Shown piece by piece: positions 56,044 through 64,000 of a stretch of 64,000 nt of DNA. Under the pieces are notes generated by a model. That model searched no databases, was not told the DNA's origin, and saw only the letters and a list, made by a program, of their open reading frames with translations. A program made the position numbers and the translations under genes. Origin of the DNA: Antiquaquibacter soli (GTDB lineage Bacteria > Actinomycetota > Actinomycetes > Actinomycetales > Microbacteriaceae); contig NZ_JAUQUB010000001.1 in NCBI RefSeq assembly GCF_030580675.1, positions 1,302,001-1,366,000 on the forward strand. The letters are read 5' to 3'. Each line of letters begins with the position of its first letter. Positions within the stretch are counted from its first letter, which is position 1.

Positions 56044-56046
56044 TGC

Positions 56047-56072
56047 TACGGTATTGGTAGGACCACCTACCA
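56047..56072 (+). promoter_or_regulatory. Promoter and candidate GntR operator of the catabolic locus
   Basis: TACGGT (56047-56052) is the likely -10, starting three bases after the ybaK stop. It is followed by TGGTAGGACCACCTACCA (56055-56072), with perfect 7-bp arms TGGTAGG and CCTACCA. It contains TGGTNNNACCA, like operators of FadR-type GntR regulators. The predicted transcript start (about 56059) lies inside. Confidence 0.65.
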
Positions 56073-56091
56073 CAACGATGGAGTTGAACTC

Positions 56092-57513
56092 GTGATCACT
56101 GTTGCCTCTGTCGACGCCCGCGTGACGCACGTGTCCACCCGGATCCCCTTCCGTTACGGCATCGCCGAGATGGTCGCCGCTCCGCACGTCGTCGTCGAGC
56201 TCAGCGTGAGCGACGGGGATCGCGTCGCTCGGGGCTGGGCGTCGGAGCACCTGCCCCCGAAGTGGTTCACGAAGGACCCCGACAGTCTCTTCGTCGACGA
56301 GATCGCCGACATGGTCGGGGTGATCCTGCACGCCGTCGACGCGTCGCGCGGCAGGTCGGGCGGGTCGGCGTTCGAGGTGTGGCGTGTCATCGATGAGTCG
56401 CAGCAGTCGTGGGCTGCGGACGAGGGCATCCCCGGCCTCCTCGCCGGTCTCGGCACGGCGCTCGTGGAGCGTGCCCTCATCGACGCGGTGTGCCGCCTCG
56501 AGGGGGTGCCTTTCGGCGAGGCGCTGCGGTCCGGAGCGCTCGGCTGGGAGCCGGCGGTCCTGCATCCCGAACTCGCGGGCCGGCCGGCGGCCGACCTCCT
56601 GCCTCGACCGGGAGCTCCGGAGATCGCGATCCGGCACACGGTGGGCCTGTCCGACGCGCTCACCGACGATGAGGTCGTGGATGCTCCCGCCGACGGGCTC
56701 CCGGTGAGCCTCGATTCCGTGCTCGCTCGCTACGGTGTCACACACCTCAAGATCAAGACGGCGGGACGGCTCGACGACGACATCCCGCGGCTGCATCGCA
56801 TCCTCGACGTGATGGGGGCCGCCGGCATCGACCCGGTGCTCACCATCGACGGCAACGAGTCGATGCGCACCGCCGAGCATCTCGTCGAGTGGGCGCGGGG
56901 GCTCCTCGCCGACGATCGGCTCGCCCCGGTCGTGCGTGACCGTCTCGTGGCCGTCGAGCAGCCCTTCCACCGCTCGATCGCGCTCGGCGTGGAAGCCGCC
57001 GCTGCGCTTGAGGCGCTCCGCGGTGAGGTCGCGGTCATCATCGACGAATCGGATGACGCCGTGACGACGGTTCGCGCCGGCATGGACCTCGGCTACGCGG
57101 GCGGAACCTACAAGGGCTGCAAGGGAGTGTTCCGTGGTCTCGCGAACGCCGCGCTCGCGGGGTCCCGTGGGGGCGGAGCGGTGCTCACCGCCGAGGACCT
57201 GTCGACGGTCCCCCCGCTCACGGTCGCGCAGGATCTCGTCGTTGCGCACGCCATGGGCCTCACCCATATCGAGCGCAACGGCCACCACTACTTCGGTCGG
57301 CTCGCGCCGCTCGGGGATGAGGTCGAGGAGACCGCGCTCGCGGCGCACCCCGACCTCTACGAGCGATCCGACGGCGGCCGGGTGCGGCTGCGCATCGCCC
57401 ACGGCTCCGTTGCGCTCGGCACCCTCCTGGAGTCTCCGTTCGGCTTCTCCGGAGAGCTCGATGTCTCCGGGCTCGAACCTCTCTCGGTGGCCGCGGCAAC
57501 CCGGGGGATGTGA
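56092..57513 (+). CDS. Enolase-superfamily enzyme (muconate cycloisomerase/mandelate racemase type)
   Basis: 473 aa from GTG 56092. Barrel residues are in place: KIK with Lys220 and Lys222, metal ligands Asp253 (TIDGNES), Glu289 (VEQPF) and Asp318 (IIDESDD), and a general-base Lys341 or Lys344 (YKGCKG). Lys on both faces is the pattern of the muconate-lactonizing subgroup, which includes dehydratases, cycloisomerases and racemases. About 100 aa longer than typical members, mainly in the first 180 residues and the C-terminus. First gene of the locus, directly downstream of the candidate operator. Confidence 0.88.
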   Translation: MITVASVDARVTHVSTRIPFRYGIAEMVAAPHVVVELSVSDGDRVARGWASEHLPPKWFTKDPDSLFVDEIADMVGVILHAVDASRGRSGGSAFEVWRVIDESQQSWAADEGIPGLLAGLGTALVERALIDAVCRLEGVPFGEALRSGALGWEPAVLHPELAGRPAADLLPRPGAPEIAIRHTVGLSDALTDDEVVDAPADGLPVSLDSVLARYGVTHLKIKTAGRLDDDIPRLHRILDVMGAAGIDPVLTIDGNESMRTAEHLVEWARGLLADDRLAPVVRDRLVAVEQPFHRSIALGVEAAAALEALRGEVAVIIDESDDAVTTVRAGMDLGYAGGTYKGCKGVFRGLANAALAGSRGGGAVLTAEDLSTVPPLTVAQDLVVAHAMGLTHIERNGHHYFGRLAPLGDEVEETALAAHPDLYERSDGGRVRLRIAHGSVALGTLLESPFGFSGELDVSGLEPLSVAAATRGM

Positions 57514-57520
57514 GGCCGTC

Positions 57521-58219
57521 GTGAGCGAGGACACTGAACGGCGGGCGTTCACCATCGTCCCGATCCCCCACGTCGATGTGCACGAGGCGGTGCTCGAGCA
57601 GCTCAAGCAACTCGTCGCACAATCGCGCAAGGGCGACCGACTCCCTGCCGAGCGAGACCTCGCCGAGCAGTTCGGGGTCAGCCGCGTCTCCTTGCGGACG
57701 GCCCTGCGCTCCCTCGAGAGCATGGGTCGCATCGAGATCCGACGCGGCGCCGGCAGCTTCGTCGTCAACCCGGAGTCGAGCCCGATCACGGCGTGGCTCA
57801 AGGAGCTCGAGCCGGTCGGCGAGGACTTCCTCAACCACCTGGTCGAGGTGCGCGCGGCCGTCGAGGACCGTGTGCTGGTGCTCGCGCACCGGGCGGCACC
57901 CGACTACTCGCTCCTCGCGGCACTCCTCGACACGATCGAGCACGGTTTCGACGCGGTCGATCTCGACGCCGGCAGCCTCGATGTCCGGTTCGAGGCGATG
58001 CTCGGTCGACTCACGGCCAATCCCCTGCTCATCGAGCTCCAGAAGTCGGTGCACGAGCTGTGGGTCGAGGCCTGGGGCGCCGTCGGGATGGCTCCCGGGG
58101 ACCCGGTCGCCCTCCTCGGCGAGCACCGGCTGATCCTCGACGCCCTCGTCGGCGGCGACCTCCCTCGCGCGCGCGAGCTCATGGCCGGGCACGTCGATCG
58201 GCACGTCGCGACCCGCTGA
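57521..58219 (+). CDS. GntR-family regulator (FadR/FCD type)
   Basis: 232 aa from GTG 57521. Winged helix with RLPAERDLAEQFGVSRVSLRTALRSLE and GAGSFVV, then an all-helical FCD-type ligand domain (VEVRAAVEDRVLVLAHR, LGEHRLILDALVGGDLPRARELMAGHVDRHV). FCD domains commonly bind sugar acids or carboxylates through a metal. Seven bases after the enolase-type gene, so it likely controls the locus and its own expression through the repeat at 56055. Confidence 0.93.
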   Translation: MSEDTERRAFTIVPIPHVDVHEAVLEQLKQLVAQSRKGDRLPAERDLAEQFGVSRVSLRTALRSLESMGRIEIRRGAGSFVVNPESSPITAWLKELEPVGEDFLNHLVEVRAAVEDRVLVLAHRAAPDYSLLAALLDTIEHGFDAVDLDAGSLDVRFEAMLGRLTANPLLIELQKSVHELWVEAWGAVGMAPGDPVALLGEHRLILDALVGGDLPRARELMAGHVDRHVATR

Positions 58220-58258
58220 TCGGCTCCGATCGGGAGTGCGGACGCCCCGGACGGCGGG

Positions 58259-58302
58259 TTGTGCACAATCGGTTGCGCTACTAGTGCGTTCTGTGCTGTA
58301 AT
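58259..58302 (+). promoter_or_regulatory. Internal promoter region with palindrome
   Basis: TTGTGCACAA (58259-58268) is a perfect palindrome. TTGCGC (58273-58278) and TGTAAT (58297-58302), 18 bases apart, could be the -35 and -10. The site lies just upstream of the -35, where activators often bind. Followed by CTCTCG/CGAGAG (58305-58317). Confidence 0.45.
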
Positions 58303-58331
58303 CGCTCTCGGCGAGAGAGGACCAGCCTTCG

Positions 58332-59390
58332 ATGACGAACACCACCGACACTCGGTCGGCCGCCCTGGCGGTCCTTCACGAGGGCACGGTCATCCCCGCC
58401 CACCCGCTCGCCCTGACCGCCGAGCGCCGTCTCGACGGTGCCCGGCAGCGGGCCCTCAGCCGGTACTACCTGGATGCGGGTGCCGGCGGCCTCGCGGTCG
58501 GAGTGCACACCACCCAGTTCGCGATCCGGGAGCACGGACTCTTCGAGCCCGTACTCGAGATCTCCGCCGGGGTAGCCGCGGACTGGACCGACCGGCCCAT
58601 CGCCCTCGTCGCGGGCGTCGTGGGAGACACCGAGCAAGCGGTGACCGAGGCCCGACTCGCGCGCAGCTTCGGGTACACCGCGGTCATCCTCAATGTCGCC
58701 GCGTGGAAGGGGCGCCCGGAGTCCGACATCCTCGAGCACTGCCGCGCGGTCGCCGCCGAGATGCCCGTCGTCGGATTCGCCCTCCTGCCCGAAGTCGGCG
58801 GCTTCCACCTGAGCTACGAGTTCTGGTACCGGTTCGCGCAGATCGAGAACGTCGTCGCCATCAAGCTCGCGCCCTTCAACCGGTACCGCACCCTCGACAT
58901 CGTGCGCGCCGTCGTCGCGGCCCGAGCCGAGGACCGCATCGCCCTGTACACCGGCAATGACGACCACATCGTGCTGGACCTCCTGCAACCCTTCGTCATC
59001 CCTCGTGACGGCGAGCTCGTCCCCGTCTCCATCGTGGGCGGGCTCCTCGGCCACTGGAGCGTCTGGACCCGGGCTGCGGTGGAGCAGTTCGAGCGCATCC
59101 GAGCGGCTCGCGGCCAGGCCGTGAGCGCGGAGCTGCTCGGCCTCGACTCGCGCGTGACCGACTGCAACGAGGCGATCTACGACGCCCTCAACGATTTCGC
59201 CGGGTGCATCCCCGGCTGCCTCGAGGTGCTCCGACGGCAGGGCCTCGTCGAGGGCACGTGGTGCCTCGACGAGGCCGAAGTGCTCTCCCCCGGCCAGCTC
59301 GAGGAGATCGATCGGGTGTACTCCGTGCATCCCGACCTCAATGACGACGGCTTCGTCGCCCGCCACCTCGAGCGCTGGCTCGCCGACTAG
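58332..59390 (+). CDS. DapA-like (class I aldolase) enzyme
   Basis: 352 aa, longer than typical DapA/NAL proteins (about 300). TIM barrel with the Schiff-base Lys178 (AIKLAPFNRY). The tyrosine that acts in dihydrodipicolinate synthase (VLYNVP-like strand) seems absent: the corresponding stretch is VVGFALLPEVGG. It probably cleaves or dehydrates a 2-oxo acid, as relatives do in sugar-acid breakdown. Ribosome site GAGAGGA ten bases upstream. Followed by the oxidoreductase after 27 bases. Confidence 0.85.
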   Translation: MTNTTDTRSAALAVLHEGTVIPAHPLALTAERRLDGARQRALSRYYLDAGAGGLAVGVHTTQFAIREHGLFEPVLEISAGVAADWTDRPIALVAGVVGDTEQAVTEARLARSFGYTAVILNVAAWKGRPESDILEHCRAVAAEMPVVGFALLPEVGGFHLSYEFWYRFAQIENVVAIKLAPFNRYRTLDIVRAVVAARAEDRIALYTGNDDHIVLDLLQPFVIPRDGELVPVSIVGGLLGHWSVWTRAAVEQFERIRAARGQAVSAELLGLDSRVTDCNEAIYDALNDFAGCIPGCLEVLRRQGLVEGTWCLDEAEVLSPGQLEEIDRVYSVHPDLNDDGFVARHLERWLAD

Positions 59391-59417
59391 ACCACCGAAG
59401 CGAAGGAACTGCACCCC

Positions 59418-60473
59418 ATGACGACCGAGACCGCCCTGCTCACGCGGGACGACCTTCCCGAGACCTTTGCCGACGTGGACTCGCTCGACGAGTTCATGAG
59501 CCGGCCCACCCCGGAGACGGTGCGAGACCTCGCCGAGCTCGAGGGCGACGTCATCATCCTCGGCGTCGCCGGCAAGATGGGAATGGGACTCGCGAGGATG
59601 ATCAAGCGCGCCGCACCCGGCAAGCGCGTCATCGGCGTCGCGCGCTTCTCCGACGAGGGCTCCGCGGAGTGGCTGAACCGGTTCGGCGTCGAGACGATCA
59701 GGGCAGACCTGCTCGACCGCGAGGCGGTCCAGGCGCTGCCGAAGGTCCCCAACGTGATCTACATGGCGGGACTGAAGTTCGACTTCCGCGGCCGCGAGGA
59801 CTTCCTGTGGGCGATGAACACCCTCGTGCCCGCCCACGTCGCCGACGCCTACCGCGACAGCCGAATCGTCGCTCTCTCGACCATCCACGTCTATCCCTGG
59901 TCCGACCCCCGCAGGGGCGGCGTAACCGAGGATGAGCCGCCTCTGGCCCGACCCGGGGAGTATGCCAACTCGGTCGTCGGCCGGGAGCGCACCTTCCAGT
60001 ACTTCTCCGGCCTGCACGGGACGCCGGGGCGGATCGTGCGATTCGTCTACGCGATCGACATGCGCTACGGGGTGCTCCAGGAGATCGCGACGTGGGTTCG
60101 GGACGGCGTGCCCATCCCTCTCGCCACCGGCAACGTCAACATCCAGTGGCAGGGCGACGCGATCAACCACTTCGCCCGACTGCTGCTGCACTGCGAGACC
60201 CCCTCGACGCCGATCAACATCGGTGGACCCGAGTGCGTGAGCGTGCGGCACGTCGCGATCGAGTTCGGCAAGCTCCTCGGCGTCGAGCCGGTCTTCGAGG
60301 GCGAGGAGAGCGATCACGCGCTGTTCGTCAACTGCGACGCTGCCGCCGAGCTACTCGGCAATCCGACCGTCCCCGTGGCGACCATGATCCGCTGGGTCGC
60401 GGACTGGGTGGCCGCAGGCAAGCCCCTGTACGGCAAGCCGAGCAAGTTCCAGGTGCGAACCGGGATCTTCTGA
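59418..60473 (+). CDS. NAD-dependent epimerase/dehydratase-family protein lacking the catalytic Lys
   Basis: 351 aa extended-SDR fold. Dinucleotide loop ILGVAGKMGMG (GxxGxxG, about residues 47-57), VIYMAG, and STIHVYPW with a Ser/Thr. The active-site Tyr is in PGEYANSVVGRE, but the residue four on is Val rather than Lys. The later RFVYAIDMRYGVLQ and VNIQWQGDAINHFARLLLH fit sugar-nucleotide-type members. The reaction is open; redox chemistry on a sugar acid is plausible. Confidence 0.83.
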   Translation: MTTETALLTRDDLPETFADVDSLDEFMSRPTPETVRDLAELEGDVIILGVAGKMGMGLARMIKRAAPGKRVIGVARFSDEGSAEWLNRFGVETIRADLLDREAVQALPKVPNVIYMAGLKFDFRGREDFLWAMNTLVPAHVADAYRDSRIVALSTIHVYPWSDPRRGGVTEDEPPLARPGEYANSVVGRERTFQYFSGLHGTPGRIVRFVYAIDMRYGVLQEIATWVRDGVPIPLATGNVNIQWQGDAINHFARLLLHCETPSTPINIGGPECVSVRHVAIEFGKLLGVEPVFEGEESDHALFVNCDAAAELLGNPTVPVATMIRWVADWVAAGKPLYGKPSKFQVRTGIF

Positions 60474-60508
60474 CCATCACCGTCGCACCACCTCGAAAGG
60501 ACACGCTC

Positions 60509-61678
60509 GTGCTCTCCGGCATCCGGGTCATCAGCTTCACCCACTTCCTCCAGGGCCCGTCGGCGAGCCAGATCCTCGCGGACCTCGGCGCCGACGTCAT
60601 CAAGGTCGAGCCCCACGGCGGCGCCTTCGAGCGCAACTGGACCGCGCCAGGGCGCTTCATCGAGGGCGAGAGCCCGTTCTTCGCGCTCGGCAACCGCAAC
60701 GTCCGCAGCATCGTGATCGACCTCAAGCACGAGCAGTCCGCGGAGGTCCTCCGCGACCTCCTCGCCGACGCGGATGTGCTCATCGAGAGCTTCCGCCCCG
60801 GCACGCTCGATCGGCTCGGGCTCGGCTTCGACGTGCTGCACGAGCTGAATCCGCGGCTCGTCTACGCGTCGCTCTCGGGATACGGAACCTCGGGGCCCTA
60901 CGTCGACCGACCGGGACAGGACGTGCTGCTGCAGGCGCTGTCCGGACTCGCGGCCGCGACGGGTCGGGCGGGGCAGGACCCGACTCCGGTCGGCGCGTGC
61001 GTCGTCGACCAGCACGCCGCCGTGCTCGGAGCCCTCGGCATCCTCGCGGCCCTCCACGGACGGGAGCGCACCGGTCGCGGCGTCAAGGTCGAGAGCAACC
61101 TGCTCAACGCGGCTCTCGACCTCCAGATCGAGCCACTCACCTATGCCCTCAACGGCTTCGAGCCGGAGCGATCGGCGGAGGGGATCTCGTCCGCCTTCTA
61201 CAAGGCACCCTACGGGGTCTTCGCGACGGCCGACGGCCACCTGTGCATCTCGCTGACGACAACCGCCGCCCTCGCGCGGGTGTTCGACGACGAGTGGTTC
61301 GCGACGATCGCGCCCGCAGACGAATGGGAGCAGCGCGACACCATCAACGCCCGCGTCGCCGATCATGTGCGGCGCCGCTCGACCGCCGAGTGGGAGGCGC
61401 ACTTCACCACCGAGAAGATGTGGTTCGCGCCGGTTCAGGACTACGACGCCGTGATCGCGGACCCCCAGGTGCTCCACAACGACAGCTTCGACGAGTACCA
61501 GCACCCGCGCGCGGGCACCCTGCGGGTGCTCAAGCACGCCGTCACCTATGACGGAGTGCGGCCGGGCATCCGCACTCCCCCGCCGGAGCTCGGAGAGCAG
61601 ACCCGAGAGGTGCTCGCGGGGCTCGGGTACTCAGACCACGCGATCGACGCGCTCATCGAGTCGAAGGCTCTCGCGTGA
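60509..61678 (+). CDS. Class III (CaiB/BaiF) CoA-transferase
   Basis: 389 aa from GTG 60509. FLQGPSASQILADLGADVIKVEPHGGAF and ESFRPGTLDRLGLGFD at the N-terminus; the catalytic Asp138 is in PGQDVLLQALSG. These enzymes move CoA between acyl groups through an Asp-anhydride intermediate. AAAGGA lies eight bases upstream. Overlaps the hydratase gene by 4 bases (GTGA), so the two are probably made together and act in succession. Confidence 0.92.
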   Translation: MLSGIRVISFTHFLQGPSASQILADLGADVIKVEPHGGAFERNWTAPGRFIEGESPFFALGNRNVRSIVIDLKHEQSAEVLRDLLADADVLIESFRPGTLDRLGLGFDVLHELNPRLVYASLSGYGTSGPYVDRPGQDVLLQALSGLAAATGRAGQDPTPVGACVVDQHAAVLGALGILAALHGRERTGRGVKVESNLLNAALDLQIEPLTYALNGFEPERSAEGISSAFYKAPYGVFATADGHLCISLTTTAALARVFDDEWFATIAPADEWEQRDTINARVADHVRRRSTAEWEAHFTTEKMWFAPVQDYDAVIADPQVLHNDSFDEYQHPRAGTLRVLKHAVTYDGVRPGIRTPPPELGEQTREVLAGLGYSDHAIDALIESKALA

Positions 61679-62460
61679 GCGACTCGGTGCTGCTGAGCCG
61701 GGAGCCGGGCATCCTGATCATCGAGCTCGCCCGGCATCAGAAGCGCAACGCGATCACCTCCGAGATGATCGACGCCCTGGCCGCCGCGGTCGCGGCCGCC
61801 GAGAAGGAGGGCGTCGCCGTCATCGTGCTGCGCGGCGCCCCTGGCTTCTTCAGTGCCGGGGCGGACATCGCAGGCTACGCGGACGCCCGCGGCGATGCCG
61901 CCTCGCTCGCCGACTTCACGGCCCGAGCCAAGGCGCTGTGCACGTCGCTCACGACCTCCCCCGCGATCGTCATCGCGGCGGTCGACGGTGTGGCCATGGG
62001 CGGGGGGTTCGAGCTAGTGCTCTCCGCCGACCTCGTTCTCGCGACCGACCGCAGCCGCTTCGGCCTCCCGGAGATCACCCTCGGTCTCATCCCCGGCTGG
62101 GGAGGTACGCAGCGCCTCACACGATTCCTCGGCCCCAACCGCACGAAGGAGGCGGTGCTGACCGCGACCCCGCTCGACGCGCAGCAGGCTCGAGAGGGCG
62201 GCATCGTCTCTCGGGTCGTCGCGGTGGACGAGTTGGATGCCGCGGCGCTCGACCTCGCCCGCTCCCTCGCCGCCCGGGCCCCCCTCGCTCTCGCCGCGGC
62301 CAAGGCTGCCGTCACGGCGGCCTACGACCCGGAGCACGGCGCCGACACGGGTAGCGGCCTGGAGACCGAGCACCTCCTGCGCTTGTTCGCTAGTGCCGAT
62401 GGCCAGGAGGGCGTGGCGGCGTTCGTCGAGAAGCGCCCGCCGATCTTCACCGGACGATAG
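61675..62460 (+). CDS. Enoyl-CoA hydratase/isomerase-family protein
   Basis: 261 aa. Both glutamates of crotonase hydratases are present: Glu113 (GGGFEL) and Glu133 (LPEITLGLIPGWGGTQRL). The oxyanion hole segment SAGADIAGY is normal. It would add water to, or remove it from, the CoA ester formed by the upstream transferase. Confidence 0.93.
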   Translation: MSDSVLLSREPGILIIELARHQKRNAITSEMIDALAAAVAAAEKEGVAVIVLRGAPGFFSAGADIAGYADARGDAASLADFTARAKALCTSLTTSPAIVIAAVDGVAMGGGFELVLSADLVLATDRSRFGLPEITLGLIPGWGGTQRLTRFLGPNRTKEAVLTATPLDAQQAREGGIVSRVVAVDELDAAALDLARSLAARAPLALAAAKAAVTAAYDPEHGADTGSGLETEHLLRLFASADGQEGVAAFVEKRPPIFTGR

Positions 62461-62469
62461 GAGCACGCC

Positions 62470-63837
62470 GTGACGACCACCGCTGGACTCGACCGCTGGA
62501 AGCTCTCAAGCGTCTACCCCGTCGAACACGGCCTGCCCGTGCTCGCCGAGGTCGACGTCGTCGTCGTGGGCGCGGGGGCCGCCGGCGTCGCGGCGGCGAC
62601 CGTGTGCGCGGAGCAGGGCCTCAGCGTGATCGTCGTGGAGCGCTACGGGTTCGCGGGCGGCGCCGCGGTCGCGGGGATGAGCGGGACGATCTGCGGGCTG
62701 TACCTCGCGAGCGAGTCCGCCGGCTCCCCCGAGCAGGTCGTCTTCGGGTTCACCGAGCGCTTCCGCGCCGGCCTCGAGGCCCGCGGCGGTCTCACCGCTC
62801 CCCAGCGCTACGGGAAGACCTTCACCGTCGCGCACGACCCGCAGCGCTGGCGCGAGGTAGCGGACGACCTCATGTACGCCGCGGGAGTGCGCATCCTGTT
62901 CCACACGGCGCTCACGGGCGTGATCATGGCCGGCGACGAGCACCGCGGCGTCGTCGTCGAGTCCAATGCGGGGAGCATCGCGATCCACGCCCGGCGCACG
63001 ATCGATGCCTCGGGGGATGCCGCGGCCGTCGCCCGCGCCGGGTGGCCGTACTTCTTCGGGGACAACGGCCGCATCCAGAACCCCACGATGTTCTTCCGTC
63101 TCGGCAGCGTCGACGAGGAGGCCTTCTGGCGCGAGTACGGCGACGACACGATCTGCCCGCCGTGGTTGAGCGAGCGCATCGTCGCCGAGCGCGCCGCCGG
63201 GTACGACCTCCCGCGCGACAAGATCTGGATCTTCCGCACTCCGCGCAGCGGGGAGCTGCTTGTGAACGCGACCCGCCTGGCGGACAGCGACGGCCGCATG
63301 CTCAACGTCATCGACCCCGAGGACTTCACGATCGCGGAGCTCCTCGGCCGCAAGCAGGTGCGCAGCTACGCCGACTTCCTTCAGCGCACGGTGGGCGGAC
63401 TCGACTCGAGCTTCGTCGTCGACACCGGGGTCGAGGCGGGGGTTCGCCAGACGCGGAGCATCGTGGCCGCCGAGATGCTCACCAACGAGCACGTGGTCCA
63501 GTGCGCCAAGCCCGCGGACGGCATCGTCCGCTCGCCTTGGCCCATCGAGCTGCACGACGGCGCCCGGCCCAAGCTGCACTGGCTCCTCGACGACTACTAC
63601 GAGGTGCCCTACCTCTCCCTCGTGCCGGAGCGCGGTGAGGGAGTCATCGTCGCGGGGCGATGCCTCGGCGCCCAGCACGAGGCACTCGCCTCGGCGCGGG
63701 TCACCGCGCAGTGCTTCGAGTACGGTCACGCGGCGGCGGTCGCGACGGTCCTGTCGCTGTCGACGGGCGCGCGCTACCGCGACGTGGATGCCCGTGAGAT
63801 CCGCGCCCGGATGATCGCGGGCGGCAGTGCCCTCTGA
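62470..63837 (+). CDS. FAD-dependent oxidoreductase (FAD_oxidored type)
   Basis: 455 aa from GTG 62470. Rossmann loop VVGAGAAGVAAA (33-44), ERYGFAGGAAVAGMSG after the second strand, TIDASGDAAAVARAG and a late GRCLGAQHEALASARVTAQC that closes over FAD. The HAAAVATVLSL tail is typical of the family with fumarate-reductase-like fold. Substrate unknown. Last complete gene of the locus. Confidence 0.88.
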   Translation: MTTTAGLDRWKLSSVYPVEHGLPVLAEVDVVVVGAGAAGVAAATVCAEQGLSVIVVERYGFAGGAAVAGMSGTICGLYLASESAGSPEQVVFGFTERFRAGLEARGGLTAPQRYGKTFTVAHDPQRWREVADDLMYAAGVRILFHTALTGVIMAGDEHRGVVVESNAGSIAIHARRTIDASGDAAAVARAGWPYFFGDNGRIQNPTMFFRLGSVDEEAFWREYGDDTICPPWLSERIVAERAAGYDLPRDKIWIFRTPRSGELLVNATRLADSDGRMLNVIDPEDFTIAELLGRKQVRSYADFLQRTVGGLDSSFVVDTGVEAGVRQTRSIVAAEMLTNEHVVQCAKPADGIVRSPWPIELHDGARPKLHWLLDDYYEVPYLSLVPERGEGVIVAGRCLGAQHEALASARVTAQCFEYGHAAAVATVLSLSTGARYRDVDAREIRARMIAGGSAL

Positions 63838-63858
63838 GGAGGACCGGCGCACGTCGAG

Positions 63859-63871
63859 TAGCATCGGCGTC
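63859..63871 (+). promoter_or_regulatory. Predicted -10 element of the LacI gene, leaderless spacing
   Basis: TAGCAT (63859-63864), seven bases, GTG 63872. Confidence 0.45.
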
Positions 63872-64000
63872 GTGGCCCGACTCAAGGATGTTGCCCAGCT
63901 CGCGCAGGTGTCGGTCTCCGTCGCGTCGCGCGTGCTGAACAACGACGAGGGTGCCCGCATCAACGCCGACACGCGCAAGCGCGTCTTCGAGGCGGCCGAG
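63872..64000 (+). CDS. LacI-family transcriptional regulator, N-terminal part (cut by window edge)
   Basis: 43 codons are visible: VARLKDVAQLAQVSVSVASRVLNNDE..., the LacI helix-turn-helix with the recognition helix SVSVASRVLN and start of the hinge region. The ligand domain lies beyond the edge. LacI regulators usually sense sugars, which fits the neighbouring locus. It has its own predicted promoter. Confidence 0.92.
   Translation, partial: MARLKDVAQLAQVSVSVASRVLNNDEGARINADTRKRVFEAAE

Follow-up and report, generated by a model that had tools for sequence, protein, structure and literature searches.

The non-phosphorylative breakdown of sugar acids, as passages of PMC9795676 describe it, goes through oxidation and dehydration (sometimes by an enzyme of the enolase superfamily) before a DHDPS/NAL or FAH enzyme acts on the 2-keto-3-deoxy acid. 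We have analysed a 64,000-nucleotide stretch of the 3.2-Mb genome of Antiquaquibacter soli (the window from here on, spanning positions 1302001-1366000 of its contig), at the right end of which eight co-directional genes of the + strand (56092-64000, the last one cut by the window edge) form a catabolic locus where relatives of such enzymes stand next to genes of CoA chemistry. The Weimberg and Dahms pathways and their hexonate relatives resemble this locus in the oxidation, the dehydration and the DHDPS/NAL-type step, but the families found in the window are very distant, its DapA-like protein (DAPA) and its short-chain dehydrogenase/reductase (SDR) miss a Tyr and a Lys, respectively, and it has a CoA-transferase and a crotonase in an operon devoid of any aldehyde dehydrogenase (ALDH). 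The trio of SDR, enolase and DHDPS/NAL enzymes is found also in the oxidative uronate pathway (Udh, Gci, KdgD and a semialdehyde dehydrogenase), in which Udh and Gci belong to the SDR and enolase superfamilies; here the differences are the extra CoA genes and an enolase-like protein, ENO, that falls below all Pfam and NCBIfam models. Besides, KdgD enzymes conserve, according to parts of PMC5114784, both a Lys and a catalytic Tyr, and this Tyr is Ala in the window. Parts of a paper on the oxidative deoxyribose/deoxyribonate pathway mention glyceryl-CoA and a CoA-transferase (PMC6365646), which makes that sugar-acid route similar at the level of description. As for transport, the solute-binding protein (SBP) encoded past the window edge matches YesO of the Bacillus subtilis YesOPQ importer in sequence; parts of PMC5730181 attribute to YesOPQ a possible, perhaps marginal, role in the use of rhamnogalacturonan I.

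We consider it very likely (probability about 0.9) that the window holds the left half of one conserved catabolic regulon. Gene content, conserved order, a common operator sequence, co-occurrence and a pattern of kept and lost catalytic residues were observed; from them we infer the substrate (preferably a pectin-derived oligosaccharide containing uronate or rhamnose), every reaction and the order of the reactions, and the odds for the reaction scheme as a whole are about even.

Gene content, order and distribution

The first gene, ENO (56092-57513, 473 amino acids, aa), encodes a divergent member of the enolase superfamily with a putative active site of the muconate-lactonising kind. Behind it come a GntR-FCD transcriptional regulator (57521-58219, 232 aa; PF00392 and PF07729 above cut-off), the putative lyase of the DHDPS/NAL type, DAPA (58332-59390, 352 aa; PF00701 with 37 bits, cut-off 22.1), and an extended SDR (59418-60473, 351 aa; PF01370, Epimerase, with 37.9 bits, cut-off 20.9). 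The following three genes code for a class III (CaiB-type) CoA-transferase, CAIB (60509-61678, 389 aa; PF02515, 330 bits), a crotonase or enoyl-CoA hydratase, ECH (61675-62460, 261 aa; PF00378, 199 bits), and an FAD-dependent oxidoreductase, FAD (62470-63837, 455 aa; PF12831, FAD_oxidored, 372 bits). The last is a LacI-family regulator (63872-64000 in the window, continuing to 64885; the complete gene has LacI and Peripla_BP_3 domains) that starts at about 63872, with an alternative earlier GTG at 63827. Gaps from DAPA to FAD are 35 bp at most, the CoA-transferase and crotonase genes overlap, and the widest gap, 112 bp upstream of DAPA, holds a candidate operator. These eight genes and their families, as listed by an earlier sequence-only reading of this DNA, were confirmed, seven of them by passing a Pfam gathering score (GntR/FCD, DHDPS, Epimerase, CoA_transf_3, ECH_1, FAD_oxidored and LacI) and ENO by its relatives and predicted fold. 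The same reading had suspected transport genes past the right edge, and they are there: in the DNA examined beyond it, 8 kb followed by a further 19 kb and 5 kb, the opposite strand after LacI carries genes for a DUF6807 protein, a Gfo/Idh/MocA protein, two ATP-binding cassette (ABC) permeases and the SBP, after which a putative glycosidase of 814 aa is encoded on the + strand.

ENO was found in three of 299 sampled genomes of the family (that of A. soli included) and in one of 394 of the class (A. soli only). A scan of one genome per species over 84,980 species, made with two peptide patterns and missing relatives without them, gave 18 ENO loci (loci are numbered with L and genomes with G), distributed, according to their record titles, among actinobacteria (L009-L013, L022 and L024), Verrucomicrobia (L014, L016, L017, L020, L021, L023, L025 and L026), Thermomicrobiales (L018), Hydrogenedentota (L019) and a haloarchaeal metagenome-assembled genome (MAG) (L015). 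With many MAGs among the records, mis-binning may account for an isolated case such as L015; L026 (38 matching residues, from the same isolate as L014) and L007 (from the genome of L012) were not counted as separate genomes. The closest locus comes from a Leifsonia MAG (L009; ENO at 70%, SDR at 86%). It shares with four others (L010, L012, L013 and L022; 5 of the 18) the order ENO-(GntR)-DAPA-SDR-CAIB-ECH-FAD-(LacI) followed on the opposite strand by DUF6807 and Gfo/Idh, and in all five, as in the window, the CoA genes and DAPA-SDR make up one block. The genes in brackets are the less constant ones, GntR standing behind ENO only in L009 and L010, and LacI occupying its place in all but L010. 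Because the order is kept in five other actinobacterial loci, the arrangement is not due to chance. A gene of the 814-aa type lies upstream of ENO in L012, L022, L011, L024 and L021 (directly so in the first two), and was detected at 39% or more in seven of the 18 other ENO genomes (G681, G682, G691, G692, G694, G679 and G680). In L024, an actinomycete MAG, a gene for an alpha-mannosidase of glycoside hydrolase family 38 (GH38) is found between the 814-aa-type gene and ENO (L024:6926-9976). In Homoserinibacter gongjuensis (L022:7507-17000) tblastn recovered the glycosidase-like, ENO, SDR, ECH and FAD genes not whole but in two or more pieces or frames each, the outcome either of sequencing error or of decay.

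Co-occurrence points in the same direction as synteny. Among the 18 other ENO genomes (17 from the scan plus G076, E<=1e-15), 14 have DAPA and 15 have SDR, the two being adjacent in 14 of the 14 genomes with both; outside the actinobacteria, ENO lies less than 10 kb from DAPA-SDR in G691 only. Within the family, DAPA was detected (E<=1e-30) in five of the 299 genomes, i.e., all three with ENO and two of the 296 without it, while CAIB (E<=1e-90) appeared in nine, the three ENO genomes at 64% or more and six others at 41-43%. The FAD gene, at this last threshold, is present in exactly the three ENO genomes of the 299, the two relatives being at 68-70%.

There are also DAPA-SDR loci without CoA genes, and their gene content fits oxidative sugar-acid pathways, judging by the families encoded. 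One (L070, 9283-14966), a second pair in the verrucomicrobial MAG G695, comes with ALDH, an iron alcohol dehydrogenase and a xylose-isomerase-like barrel, and provides a natural comparison for the CoA-type copy of the same genome. Another (L078) has Gfo/Idh, GH4, ABC genes and a galactarate/altronate-type (GarD/UxaA-type) dehydratase, and a third (L077) has Gfo/Idh, a serine-dehydratase-type gene, ALDH and GH4. A second SDR of G679 adjoins a gene of the FAH family (L079). Sulfatase-like genes, common in Verrucomicrobia, are found near DAPA-SDR in some members of this group and were not used as evidence.

Candidate operators of the two regulators

A palindromic operator candidate was found in common among the units of what would be one LacI regulon. 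In the window this LacI-type candidate, TGCACAATCGGTTGCGCT, is located at 58262-58279 upstream of the DAPA-to-FAD genes and scores 25.7 bits, the best site in 96 kb of its own locus, with a matrix trained on five sites from relatives (L009, L013 and L082 among the training loci) and none from the window genome. Only one other site in these 96 kb exceeds 25 bits, and it lies between the SBP and the 814-aa gene (L002:17148); the third-best site reaches 14.5 bits, and the maxima of 20 mononucleotide shuffles range from 10.1 to 18.5. Along similar lines, a degenerate pattern, drawn with the own sites known, matches with 0-1 mismatch only at these two sites in the 3.2-Mb genome, although at up to three mismatches it does no better than a reversed control (23 vs 33 matches). 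A site of at least 20 bits was detected in nine of the 13 related loci scanned. The positions are recurrent: upstream of DAPA in the window, L009, L012, L013 and L022, near the start of the glycosidase-like gene in the A. soli genome, L012, L022, L011, L024 and L084, and upstream of SBP in L082, L083, L011 and L024. In G076 the operator directly precedes the CoA-transferase gene (L081:9772), which places the CoA genes in the sugar regulon. Two extra sites in Pseudactinotalea (L013:5175 and L013:8114, with 24.5 and 19.4 bits), found next to an ADP-ribosylglycohydrolase-like gene and in the vicinity of a PhyH-like one, may mean that the regulon is larger in this organism.

A different palindrome, TGGTAGG-ACCA-CCTACCA, lies upstream of ENO (56055-56072) and is a candidate operator of the GntR/FadR type. 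A longer form of it precedes ENO in L009, so that two of the three loci in which GntR follows ENO have it; it was not found in L010 despite its GntR gene.

Kept and lost catalytic residues

ENO has no match to any Pfam or NCBIfam family at E<=0.001, and no match at E<=10 when searched as a single sequence against PDB; its profile gives only marginal matches there, to the enolase superfamily (best E 0.0037). MR_MLE_C was hit by one of two scanned relatives with 20.3 bits, below the cut-off of 29.4, and by the other not at all. We nevertheless regard ENO as a real gene because 17 relatives align with it over nearly the full length and its predicted fold matches enolase-superfamily structures. 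The AlphaFold2 model, built from 18 aligned sequences, is a two-domain fold with a barrel (mean pLDDT 90.5), and the best Foldseek match (E 9.8e-14) is an enolase-superfamily chain; the 50 matches listed are all, by title, chains of this superfamily or isomerases of that kind, at 12-19% identity and with TM-scores of 0.50-0.60 by query length and 0.60-0.74 by target. On the strength of this model, ENO is a very divergent member of the enolase superfamily (MR/MLE) unseen by Pfam and NCBIfam.

In this superfamily the metal ligands (D, E, D/E) sit at the ends of strands 3, 4 and 5 of the barrel, the muconate-lactonising subgroup has the signature KxK on strand 2 and a Lys on strand 6, and sugar-acid dehydratases of the MR/GlucD type use a His-Asp pair on strands 7 and 6. 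Ten residues are invariant in the 18-row alignment of ENO (K220, K222, D253, E289, D318, K341, K344, E368, D369 and E394). Of these, K220, K222, D253, E289, D318 and K341 lie at the ends of strands, or close to them, in the modelled structure and follow the muconate-lactonising order; D253, E289 and D318 were assigned as the ligands of strands 3, 4 and 5, K220-x-K222 to strand 2 and K341 to strand 6. The acid/base residues of the modelled protein resemble the muconate-lactonising set and not the His-Asp one, and the earlier proposal that ENO dehydrates a sugar acid lost ground accordingly. Two further loci carry distant relatives of such proteins: in L017:4083-6831 two different enolase-superfamily genes adjoin, of which one belongs to the ENO family and the other to a distant one, and another distant ENO-like gene is near a DAPA fragment in L072:708-2099.

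DAPA keeps its Schiff-base Lys, K178, in 14 of 14 aligned rows, and this Lys lines up with that of the DapA which the genome also encodes (the own DapA). In comparisons with the own DapA, three modes of MAFFT, hmmsearch and hhalign agree that the catalytic Tyr of strand 5 corresponds to residue 150, which is Ala in the window. One phmmer alignment, of the window protein by itself, has Phe149 in this place, an option that was dropped, given that the alignment with the own DapA leads to residue 150. Ala is found likewise in L009, L010, L012, L013 and L034 (the L022 genome) and Ser in L008, while Tyr occupies the position in L035, in seven other aligned rows without CoA genes, and in L042 and L077; the stretch in L078 reads AFYMQ, i.e., also Tyr. 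In other words, the Tyr is lost in all six aligned CaiB-type loci, and kept in the locus with another CoA-transferase and in seven aligned loci without CoA genes. (Because several of its genes are split over frames, L022 took no part in the alignments of ENO, DAPA and SDR or in the tree, and its DAPA residue was read separately as L034.) The cleavage of a product by DAPA, part of the original interpretation, is weakened by the Ala at this position.

The SDR has kept the Gly-rich NAD-binding motif (GxxGxxG, here GVAGKMG) and Y182 (17 of 17 rows), and in all 17 rows it lacks the Lys of the YxxxK motif. The residue found there is Val in the seven rows with CoA genes (Val186 in the window, which falls in the same column as the Lys of TerB) and Cys in the other 10. 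These departures, together with an ENO beyond the reach of Pfam, bear out the remark that several enzymes deviate from their families. Equally, no close match to characterised pathway enzymes turned up: none of the catabolic enzymes reaches an NCBIfam equivalog cut-off, and PDB searches gave distant relatives or none for ENO, DAPA, SDR and FAD (for the last, no single-sequence match at E<=1e-5).

CAIB and ECH are more conventional. CAIB has Asp167, aligned with an Asp of SUGCT, the dicarboxylate-type transferase that is its best solved match, which is the catalytic Asp of class III CoA-transferases; Glu113 and Glu133 of the crotonase are the two catalytic Glu of hydratases. The parallel with carnitine pathways that had been drawn proved weak, with 114 bits for the L-carnitine CoA-transferase equivalog against a cut-off of 413. 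In G076, CAIB-ECH-FAD is a unit separate from DAPA-SDR. In G695 (L063) the order is FAD (49%), crotonase (33%), a family I CoA-transferase (PF01144), DAPA (60%) and SDR (69%), the transferase, not homologous to CAIB, sitting between crotonase and DAPA. We read this swap of transferase superfamily, with FAD, crotonase, DAPA and SDR kept, as evidence that activation with CoA is functionally required. In the SDR tree of 19 rows, a branch supported at 100/100 separates the seven rows that have CoA genes from the rest, and tblastn (E<=1e-5) found no relative of CAIB, ECH, FAD or the family I transferase in the loci of the other 12, four of which end at contig ends (L064, L067, L071 and L080); L067 carries an FAD-type gene of another family. 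A MetE-like family (PF01717; L063:11275-12435, L020:1-855 and L023:8908-9927, 54-66% mutual identity) adjoins DAPA-SDR in one verrucomicrobial MAG and directly precedes ENO in two others. This family may belong to the pathway too, perhaps in methyl or alkyl transfer.

Substrate and reactions

The SBP aligns with YesO, its closest relative among solved chains, over query residues 29-423 (E 1.5e-49), the other best solved relatives being 4r6k, 4ovj and 2uvg/2uvh, which last we take to be oligogalacturonide-binding proteins. For the 814-aa protein, a relative (in L007) was scanned in place of the own copy and had no Pfam match at E<=0.001. The model of the protein (pLDDT 69) has a beta-rich N-terminal and a helical C-terminal part, this one read as an (alpha/alpha)6 barrel, and the structural matches listed include dextran dextrinase, GH63, GH78 rhamnosidases, GH116 and disaccharide phosphorylases, with low TM-scores of ca. 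0.25-0.32 by query length. At this pLDDT and these scores, no single glycosidase family was assigned. Both proteins together lean weakly towards a pectin-like or rhamnose-containing oligosaccharide as the substrate.

The reading that we favour, to which we would give an even chance, is that a pectin-like or deoxyhexose oligosaccharide is broken down by a non-phosphorylative route with a CoA branch. The ABC importer with its YesO-type binding protein would take up the oligosaccharide or glycoside, and the (alpha/alpha)6 glycosidase-like protein would free a sugar that Gfo/Idh and/or the SDR would oxidise to a sugar acid or lactone. ENO would then isomerise or dehydrate the sugar acid by Lys/Lys acid-base chemistry and DAPA, as a Schiff-base enzyme, would split or dehydrate the keto-deoxy product. 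A resulting acid might be oxidised or reduced by the FAD enzyme and put on CoA by the CaiB-type transferase, the crotonase hydrating or dehydrating the CoA ester. The LacI repressor would control importer, glycosidase and DAPA-to-FAD genes through one operator, and GntR probably controls ENO.

Several facts weigh against this reading. The chief one, as regards a single obligatory pathway, is that L011 and L024 keep the glycosidase-like gene, ENO, LacI, DUF6807, Gfo/Idh and ABC genes with no DAPA-to-FAD genes in the locus, and that their genomes (the second a MAG of 2.4 Mb) gave no match to DAPA or SDR at E<=1e-15; ENO can probably work, therefore, without them. The 814-aa-type gene of G680 is ca. 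0.9 Mb away from the locus, and none was detected at E<=1e-15 in G683 and G076, although the full CoA set is present in both. No operator of at least 20 bits appeared in the matrix scan of L010, L008, L063 and L085. The operon of the window also has no ALDH. The His-Asp pair of known sugar-acid dehydratases was not seen in ENO, in which, according to alignment and model, strand 6 carries K341 and strand 7 carries E368-D369. The reactions assumed may not occur at all, because DAPA is without its catalytic Tyr and the SDR without its catalytic Lys, and similarity to YesO says little on the exact ligand of the SBP.

There are other ways to explain the same genes. One, possible though unlikely, is that two branches share the regulon: an acylated or decorated glycoside would be imported, ENO, SDR and DAPA would degrade its sugar, and the CaiB-type transferase, crotonase and FAD enzyme the non-sugar acid released. 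As would be expected of an add-on branch, no relative of the CoA genes was found in the loci of the other 12 SDR rows, 10 of them keeping DAPA; the dicarboxylate-type match of CAIB and the separate CoA unit of G076 agree with this. However, the CoA genes track one clade of the SDR tree exactly, the Pfam scan found no esterase domain in any of the eight genes, and the loss of the DAPA Tyr follows the CaiB-type gene (six of six aligned loci) while the Tyr is kept in the other aligned loci, which suggests one connected route. A mere adjoining of two independent loci, sugar genes on one side and CoA genes on the other, is very improbable. That no CoA-gene relatives were found in most DAPA-SDR loci might be taken as a hint of it, but synteny showed no sign of separation: the order is conserved in five other loci, the genes overlap or are closely spaced, the operator stands upstream of CAIB in G076, and in L063 CAIB is displaced by another CoA-transferase. 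The earlier assignment of CoA and sugar enzymes to one locus holds on these grounds, together with the common operator and co-occurrence.

Closer to a described pathway would be a variant of the oxidative uronate route in which the SDR is a uronate dehydrogenase, ENO a lactone cycloisomerase, DAPA a keto-deoxyglucarate dehydratase, and the CoA enzymes finish a C5 acid. The three superfamilies are the same, L078 joins DAPA-SDR with a galactarate/altronate-type dehydratase, and L070 and L077 with ALDH, and the SBP is related to YesO and to chains of oligogalacturonide binders. We consider it rather unlikely all the same, with sequences that are only distantly related to the solved or curated ones compared (a set without Udh, Gci and KdgD), no ALDH in the window operon, and an Ala where KdgD enzymes conserve Tyr (as parts of PMC5114784 report). 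Less probable still is a 3-keto-glycoside route, in which Gfo/Idh or the FAD enzyme would oxidise C3 of the glycoside, DUF6807 or an isomerase-like barrel would eliminate the aglycone, and ENO, SDR and DAPA would process the keto-sugar. Its appeal lies in the Gfo/Idh and DUF6807 neighbours, the xylose-isomerase-like barrels of L008, L018, L025 and L070, and the presence in L077 and L078 of GH4, a family of redox glycosidases. But the glycoside 3-dehydrogenase model gives Gfo/Idh 41.8 against a cut-off of 750, and the 814-aa glycosidase-like protein could already explain bond cleavage.

Returning to the sugar-acid reading with a CoA branch, we tentatively propose, at somewhat less than even odds, that it amounts to a previously undescribed CoA-dependent pathway, in which a new ENO family acts with a Lys-less SDR and, in the CaiB-type branch, a Tyr-less DapA-like enzyme, the carbon skeleton of the sugar ending up in a CoA ester rather than in pyruvate and an aldehyde. 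Among the papers listed in a literature search over titles and abstract starts, with most subscription papers outside its scope, none describes this gene set. If true, the proposal would add to the enolase superfamily a family missed by Pfam and NCBIfam, and would tie sugar-acid breakdown to CoA chemistry. The loci would also offer a natural series for the stepwise change of a reaction, with the Tyr kept or lost, two unrelated CoA-transferases, and CoA genes present or absent. Finally, the LacI operator would be a direct handle on the system, as the sugar that releases LacI would be the inducer and would probably point to the class of substrate.

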